Below, piece by piece: positions 3,958 through 28,905 of a DNA stretch of 63,359 nt. A program made the translations under genes and the position numbers. Below the pieces are notes generated by a model. That model searched no databases, was not told the origin of the DNA, and saw only the letters and a program-made list of their open reading frames with translations. The DNA is from a virus. Location: IMG/VR virus record IMGVR_UViG_3300023179_000108, positions 1 through 63,359 of that record, one strand, 5' to 3'. Within the stretch, counting starts at the first letter, position 1, and the number at the start of each line of letters is the position of its first letter.

Positions 3958-4113
3958 TGTCAGATGGTGAAAAGCGTTACGCATGGCAGACACACCCACC
4001 CGTCTAGTGGGCGCAGATAACGAGATAGATAAGTAATATAGGTTGACCACAAAGCCGGCTTATTTTGTTACTTATTGAATTGCTGCTTAGAGGTTCGAAT
4101 CCTTTTCTGACAG
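3958..4113 (+). ncRNA. tRNA-like RNA with a greatly enlarged central domain
   Basis: 156 nt. Ends pair as an acceptor stem (TGTCAGA/TCTGACA), a D-arm-like GTG...CGC hairpin follows, and a T arm AGAGG-TTCGAAT-CCTTT precedes the 3' end. GGCAG (near 3985) can pair with CTGCT just before the T arm, where an anticodon stem would be, but about 90 nt sit in place of a 7-nt loop. That insert forms CCCAC-CCGTCTA-GTGGG (3995-4011) and an 8-bp stem ATAAGTAA/TTACTTAT (4029-4036 with 4068-4075). No anticodon can be assigned with confidence. It could be a tRNA with a small intron, a tRNA mimic, or a decaying gene. Confidence 0.6.
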
Positions 4114-4115
4114 CA

Positions 4116-4139: not shown

Positions 4140-4454
4140 ATGGCCTGTCACTGTTTATCTTTAAAAGATCAAAAAGAATTTTATAGTTTACTTAAAGCCA
4201 GAGATTCAGACTTAATTATAAAAATGGTGAGATGTGTTATTAGTGCTACTAAACGTAATAAACCAAGTATTGATATATTTGATATAACGTTTAAAAATTT
4301 AGATTCATTAGTATTTACTATTGAAAAAAGTCAATATAAAGAATTACTTTCTAATTGTTTAGATGATCTTATAGCAGTTGAAGAATATGAATTATGTGCT
4401 GAAATTAAAAAAATATTAGAAAGTAAAAGTAAAAAGAAAAAAGAAGCTCTTTAA
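4140..4454 (+). CDS. hypothetical protein, 104 aa
   Basis: Not recognised. Helical, charged, with an N-terminal MACHC and a basic tail (SKSKKKKEAL). It ends 5 nt before the tmRNA and may share its transcript. Confidence 0.65.
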   Translation: MACHCLSLKDQKEFYSLLKARDSDLIIKMVRCVISATKRNKPSIDIFDITFKNLDSLVFTIEKSQYKELLSNCLDDLIAVEEYELCAEIKKILESKSKKKKEAL

Positions 4455-4459
4455 CATAC

Positions 4460-4827
4460 GGGGATGACTTGGAATTGATTGCTACACGAATGGCAATATT
4501 ACAAGTAGGAAAATGATACTATTCCTTAATATTGTATCAAAAAATAAATGCTGAAGAATTATCTTCCTTTACCTTCGAAGACGCTATGGCTTTCGTTGGT
4601 GCTGATTACGCAGTAGCTGCCTAATCACTCCCGCACACATCGTGGAATTTAAAAAGAATGTGCAACTAGAGTACGGCTCACTAACTCTTTAAATAAAAGT
4701 GAGAAACATAATGATAATGTATGTATAAAACTTATCTATTTGTCTATTATGAATAATATAATAAACTTGTGAGACGTTGATATTATTATTACTTAGCAAG
4801 ACGCCGGTTCGAATCCGGCCATCTCCA
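4460..4827 (+). ncRNA. ssrA: transfer-messenger RNA (tmRNA)
   Basis: 368 nt, the usual tmRNA size. The 5' end GGGGATGACTTGGAATTGAT and the 3' end with T arm GCCGG-TTCGAAT-CCGGC form the tRNA-like domain; acceptor GGGGATG pairs with CATCTCC with one G-U. After AAAATAAAT a tag frame starts at GCT (4550) and stops at TAA (4622-4624): 24 codons, AEELSSFTFEDAM then AFVGADYAVAA. The end DYAVAA is a typical C-terminal degron-like tag. tmRNA rescues stalled ribosomes with SmpB. The tag is longer than the common 8-15 residues. The exact resume codon is inferred. Confidence 0.93.
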
Positions 4828-4881
4828 CTTATATTTAACTTTCTTCCCTATTAGTTTTGTTAAGATTTAAAAAACTAACCT

Positions 4882-28782: not shown

Positions 28783-28905
28783 AGTCGGGTGGCGGAATGG
28801 TAGACGTAAATACATCCAGTTATAGGGACTGAAACTCAAGCACATTTACGTTTTAGTAAATGAGAGATGAAAAAACTAATACAGGTTCGAATCCTGTCCT
28901 GACTA
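28783..28905 (+). ncRNA. tRNA-like element with enlarged centre (123 nt)
   Basis: Acceptor AGTCGGG/CCTGACT with G-U pairs, D arm GCG-GAATGGTAGA-CGT, T arm ACAGG-TTCGAAT-CCTGT. The centre has a CAGT-TATAGGG-ACTG hairpin (possible 7-nt loop, but A at position 33) and a 7-bp CATTTAC-GTTTTA-GTAAATG hairpin. Confidence 0.58.

Follow-up and report, generated by a model that had tools for sequence, protein, structure and literature searches.

Why lytic phages keep a tmRNA of their own is an open question, and one that a phage-specific tag extension, if it can be isolated, addresses. Such an extension appeared to be encoded in the stretch of DNA analyzed here (the window, 63,359 bases), a virus record that encodes a T4-like baseplate wedge protein. 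The initial annotation had described a phage-encoded tmRNA, rare of its kind, with a long tag. The phage origin is borne out by the virus record with its baseplate genes, and the rarity agrees with the 402 of 18,146 phage genomes in which ssrA is known according to PMC9004378. The locus raises the question of whether the gene is a genuine tmRNA, whether its long tag is translated, and what the extension may do.

A one-piece tmRNA (ssrA) gene was found on the plus strand, with a mature body, excluding CCA, at positions 4460 to 4827. In a scan of the window, ARAGORN placed a tmRNA at 4460-4828 and read its tag as AEELSSFTFEDAMAFVGADYAVAA*, and the Rfam covariance model RF00023 matched 4460-4830 with 74.8 bits (E 3.3e-27) against a gathering cut-off of 47 bits, the alignment spanning the entire model (1-374). 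The two programs agree with the coordinates and tag first given for this gene, including the tRNA-like ends, the resume region and the stop, and the Infernal score proposed as a check lies above the threshold. The model of permuted two-piece tmRNAs (RF04321) reached 26.1 bits, below its cut-off of 47.

The ends of the molecule were read from the sequence. In the acceptor stem GGGGATG (4460-4466) pairs with CATCTCC (4820-4826), the third pair being G-U, and the discriminator base is A4827. Because CTT occupies the CCA position, CCA is not encoded and the mature body ends at 4827. The T arm of the tRNA-like domain (4803-4819, plus strand) was evident in the sequence, in the RF00023 alignment and as a covarying stem. 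The window tmRNA has both this arm and an alanine-type acceptor with the G-U third pair. Among the aligned relatives G-U was the commonest third acceptor pair (20 of 23 rows), the rows with another 5' offset, that of the window included, being out of register. The middle pseudoknot region (PK1-PK4) fitted the Rfam model poorly, with a posterior of about 0.2, and RNAalifold cannot display pseudoknots.

The tmRNA is preceded on the same strand by a gene for a 104-residue protein (4140-4454), which ends 5 nt before it. Searches gave this protein no known name or confident family match. The two genes are probably co-transcribed. A search with the 104-residue protein recovered 36 viral contigs, all of which also carry a tmRNA above the RF00023 cut-off, so the match in the window is not due to chance. 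The window tmRNA is very likely to be functional.

The tag frame extends from 4550 to 4624 on the plus strand: its 24 codons occupy 4550-4621 and are followed by the stop TAA at 4622-4624. Before the resume codon, GCT at 4550, stands AAAAAAUAAAU, which matches the Rfam consensus context, and in the RF00023 alignment the wider stretch around the resume site, AAAAAAUAAAUGC, corresponds to AAAAAAUAAuUGC of the consensus. The tag ends in the ssrA-like C-terminus YAVAA. Chance translation of a structured region was considered and ruled out by frame-specific selection. The loci compared, the window plus the 36 contigs found through the 104-residue protein, were chosen by the gene next to the tmRNA and not by any tag pattern. 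The tag type xELSxxTFxDxMxFVGA-x-YAxAA was present in 35 of these 37, two of them shortened at the end; the remaining two (L088 and L111) were left out of the test because their tag is not homologous. For the codons upstream of the degron, pN/pS was 0.31 in the tag frame versus 1.27 and 1.76 in the other frames (20 distinct stretches), and the 104-residue gene gave 0.37 for comparison. A larger set gave 0.25 in frame versus 1.57 and 2.21 (51 different stretches of 16 codons from 59 distinct tags); it had been picked by amino-acid pattern and is therefore biased, and the test was redone on the neighbour-gene loci. In the same pattern-picked set all 59 distinct tags end in A-A or S-A. For some relatives ARAGORN gave only the last 7-8 residues (e.g. 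ANEYALAA), but no stop interrupts the longer frame in these either. Judged by its substitution pattern, the tag extension is a real coding sequence under purifying selection, and it is very likely that the full 24-residue tag is translated.

On visual inspection, several unrelated long tags of phages resembled capped amphipathic helices. This idea was dropped when hydrophobic moments were compared with those of shuffles (p=0.85 for the window tag, p=0.52 for a family member and p=0.13 for 22 tags combined). No solved structures resembling the tag were found.

The end of the tag is also structured as RNA. The last codons and the UAA stop lie in a hairpin at 4604-4626 (plus strand), which is of the type of H5 in classical tmRNA. 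Both partners of one pair in its stem have changed in 11 of the 23 aligned RNAs, and among 59 distinct tags there are 55 in which two alanine codons pair through their third bases, against 29.8 expected under independence. The alignments indicate that H5 pairing is preserved through paired synonymous changes. Comparison of the loci showed the tag to be two-part, with a predicted ssrA-like degron, YAVAA, embedded in H5 and an extension of roughly 18 residues that many phages conserve as protein. A second, small hairpin (GAAGA-ATTA-TCTTC, 4553-4566, plus strand) lies within the extension. In the aligned set its base pairing couples tag residue 2 to residue 6, and one A-U/U-A pair has both its bases exchanged in 11 of 23 RNAs and is broken in 1. 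The hairpin is not family-wide, and the paired change may be a single event.

The tag was described at the outset as long, which is correct in that 24 residues or more were reached by a minority of the phage tmRNA tags sampled. A sample collected with a 5' motif (120 loci, 86 tmRNA calls) contained 77 distinct tags with a median of 13 residues, 5 of which reach 24. The corresponding 3'-motif sample (120 loci, 90 tmRNA calls) contained 79 distinct tags with a median of 14, and 22 reach 24; this sample was drawn from relatives and is therefore biased, 11 of its 79 tags belonging to the tag family of the window. Published tmRNA tags, bacterial ones included, range from 8 to 35 residues according to PMC8012679, and the most frequent length given in PMC11915505 is 10. 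Because 24 residues fall within this range, length alone is not new: the tag is long, yet not unprecedented.

The distribution of the tag is more distinctive. A tag-alignment search of viral contigs found a relative of the tag encoded in 271 of 381 matched stretches, and ARAGORN called a tmRNA in 67 of the 80 tag-encoding viral stretches retained, some of the other 13 being truncated. A single N-terminal peptide pattern was used to search 84,980 cellular genomes and matched once, in an archaeal bin without a tmRNA. That match (L228) reads EELSSFTFESS amid other sequence, and a cellular origin of the tag was rejected. Given the viral matches and the lack of a tmRNA at the sole cellular one, the tag seems restricted to viruses, as far as that one pattern can tell. 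INPHARED held no record matching the tag. The open-access literature yielded no relevant paper on the letters of the window tag, none for the letters of Bacteroidota tags, and no description of this lineage-specific long tag.

It is possible that the gene is an ordinary bacterial ssrA captured by the phage, its tag long by drift and its extension without a role. Bacterial tags of comparable length exist (8-35 residues, PMC8012679), and ssrA genes of phages were already known. However, the selection test strains this explanation, the extension being conserved as protein (pN/pS 0.31), and the extension recurs in the 271 viral stretches while cellular genomes are without it under the pattern used. 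We regard drift as unlikely.

The conserved tag is not uniform in the lineage. Two of the 37 tags, L086 (3420-3482) and L099 (3415-3477), keep the extension without the YALAA degron, which is therefore not universal in the lineage. Compared with its 99% identical neighbour L085, L086 has a clean internal deletion; the loss in L086 and L099 may be an assembly error. The two of the 37 omitted from the selection test, L088 (3013-3093) and L111 (3395-3469), share the locus but have a long tag of another conserved family, DNKIARQE...IINMAFA..., which is unrelated to that of the window, and a scan for this tag gave 17 loci (L362-L378). Further unrelated long phage tags of 20-31 residues were seen in IMG/VR loci, for example of the APSLAEADEILAQFGW and GNTSFWSIVNESLV types.

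The surroundings of the gene bear on its host. Five tRNAs were called by ARAGORN at 1116-2945. SmpB was not found in 37 records nor in 18 further records, so the SmpB partner would be that of the host. The host is probably a member of the Bacteroidota, since Shine-Dalgarno-like words precede only 2 of 73 starts (0.8 expected) and the sequence upstream of the starts is A-rich at -13 to -10 and -7 to -5. The Bacteroidota-type promoter motif was not enriched in the window. Relatives of one structural protein were found in six INPHARED records, namely four of Flavobacterium phage immuto (32% identity), one Microcystis phage and one uncultured phage. Additionally, a possible tRNA remnant (GAGGTTCGAATCC) lies upstream of the 104-residue gene at about 4025-4115, where no tRNA was called in the window and many relatives carry a tRNA-Leu(UAA). 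A 123-nt tRNA-like match at 28783-28905 (34.7 bits) has an unusually long middle and is without an ARAGORN call.

From the gene, its frame, its conservation and the structure at the tag end, all read from sequence, we infer how the RNA is processed and charged, its use of SmpB, its tagging of proteins in infected cells and their degradation, along the following lines. Transcription would read through from the upstream gene into the tmRNA, host enzymes would trim the RNA, and host nucleotidyltransferase would add CCA. Host AlaRS would charge the tmRNA by way of the G-U third pair. During infection the charged tmRNA, together with host SmpB, would then enter ribosomes that have stalled on broken mRNA and append alanine plus the 24-residue tag to the unfinished protein. 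The product would most likely be degraded, and the extension may help a protease or adaptor to recognise it. In outline, the phage tmRNA is likely to be functional and to add its two-part tag by means of host SmpB and AlaRS. Degradation of the tagged product seems probable; that the extension gives added recognition by a protease or adaptor is possible rather than probable. The extension of about 18 residues is conserved and, in the searches made, looks restricted to viruses; it could offer a means of telling rescue alone from redirected protein turnover.

The initial annotation suggested that the long tag could send stalled products to a fate other than that given by the host tag, or that the gene could stand in for a host tmRNA disabled by the phage. 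On the first of these ideas, the C-terminus of the tag is of the ordinary ssrA kind and the extension is phage-specific and conserved. A more specific proposal is that the extension confers a phage-specific fate, either because it is read by a ClpP-like protein encoded 3-8 kb upstream in relatives or because it stabilises the product. The ClpP-like protease gene (6635-7174 in L500; mostly 10001-10537 in L507-L535) was present in 13 of the 13 neighbour-set records tested, out of the 36. A search seeded with ClpP gave 29 loci, 3 of which have under 2 kb of downstream DNA. In 21 of the remaining 26, each with at least 8 kb downstream, a tmRNA follows on the same strand (20 called by ARAGORN and 1 by Rfam), at 3.1-8.0 kb in the 18 distances listed. 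A T4-type S77 prohead protease, far from the ClpP-like gene, was found in every one of the 6 records longer than 160 kb and in none of the 18 shorter ones; because all six long records have it, the ClpP-like protein is not needed for head maturation. In the alignment of the ClpP-like proteins Ser87 and His110 are invariant (20 of 20), and the third triad residue is D in L507 and L508, E in most others and N in L535.

However, several results speak against this partnership. The ClpP-like gene is absent from all 18 records known only through the tag, and many of the contigs are the same as those of the neighbour-gene set, so the synteny reflects a single clade and is not independent evidence. 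The window too is without the gene. In G036, the relative nearest to the window, the gene sits some 1 kb beyond the position corresponding to the window's left end, so its expected site falls just beyond the contig end and the window cannot show it. No AAA_2 unfoldase was found in 24 records and no Lon in 32 phage records. The best match to the curated NCBIfam ClpP model was 81 bits against a cut-off of 249, and PHROGs ranks a head-maturation protease family first for this protein. Moreover, the residues aligned with the ClpX docking cleft are mostly replaced. A phage-specific fate of this kind is unlikely. The broader version is equally so: the phage would have its own tagging channel, in which the extension routes products broken during infection to a protease or adaptor of the phage's choosing, possibly the syntenic ClpP-like protein, and bypasses the host route, some strains having dropped the degron and so tagging without destruction. 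In one phage contig (L534, 7017-7442) a GOLLD RNA (RF02032, 255 bits) was observed downstream of a distant ClpP-like gene.

The RNA could also serve as a decoy: by titrating the host's SmpB or AlaRS it would inhibit trans-translation there, as is published for the DS6A RNA, which consists of the tRNA-like domain only (PMC11915505, PMC4131195). The window tmRNA does not belong to that class in that it has a conserved tag frame. A decoy would need neither the reading frame, nor the resume site, nor H5, yet all are kept and the frame is under selection, which makes this reading very improbable. That the gene is an integration-site relic of host ssrA, into which mobile elements are described to integrate (PMC9004378, PMC11590407), is exceedingly improbable, as it is complete, lies beside the tRNA cluster of a T4-like genome fragment and is conserved across relatives, with a tag that one pattern did not find in cells.

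Compared with known systems, the preferred reading, a functional tmRNA that adds a two-part tag, places the gene close to the bacterial one-piece ssrA (RF00023), with which it shares the full-length model match, the tRNA-like ends, the resume context and the stop in a hairpin. It differs in its tag of 24 residues versus the most frequent 10 (PMC11915505) and in the poor fit of its middle pseudoknots. Its YAVAA end makes the tag a candidate for a ClpXP-type ssrA degron, which has an LAA-like C-terminus and leads to degradation; L086 and L099 are without such an end. In Mesoplasma florum a long ssrA tag is reportedly read by Lon, the extra part changing the protease. A long tag with an extra part is common to both, whereas the phage records searched gave no Lon.

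Complete ssrA genes are likewise found in the genomes of mycobacteriophages, Bacillus phage G and Melnitz (PMC4131195, PMC9004378). The Melnitz ssrA is described as two-piece (PMC9004378), in contrast to the one-piece gene of the window, and the tag of Bacillus phage G, read from its sequence as AKLNITNNELQVA, differs from the window tag. In Bacillus phage G (L494, 1373-1446) ARAGORN also called a tRNA with a stop anticodon (tta) adjoining the tmRNA. The huge phage LR756508.1 has a tmRNA at 92434-92880 (L232) and a second, 112-nt RF00023 match at 414804-414915 (L234, 58 bits), possibly a tRNA-domain-only RNA as in DS6A. Among Bacteroidota phages, a tmRNA is reported for Cellulophaga phage Calle (PMC8776804) and Maribacter phage Panino (PMC11590407); both are podoviral according to these sources and share with the window the presence of a tmRNA. 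Flavobacterium phage immuto, the nearest cultured Flavobacterium phage found, gave no tmRNA match. Phage tmRNAs as a class are already known and the length of 24 residues is within the published range; three things seem to be new, namely a tag family of a phage lineage, the second, unrelated long tag that takes its place at this locus in some relatives, and the synteny of the tmRNA with an upstream ClpP-like gene.
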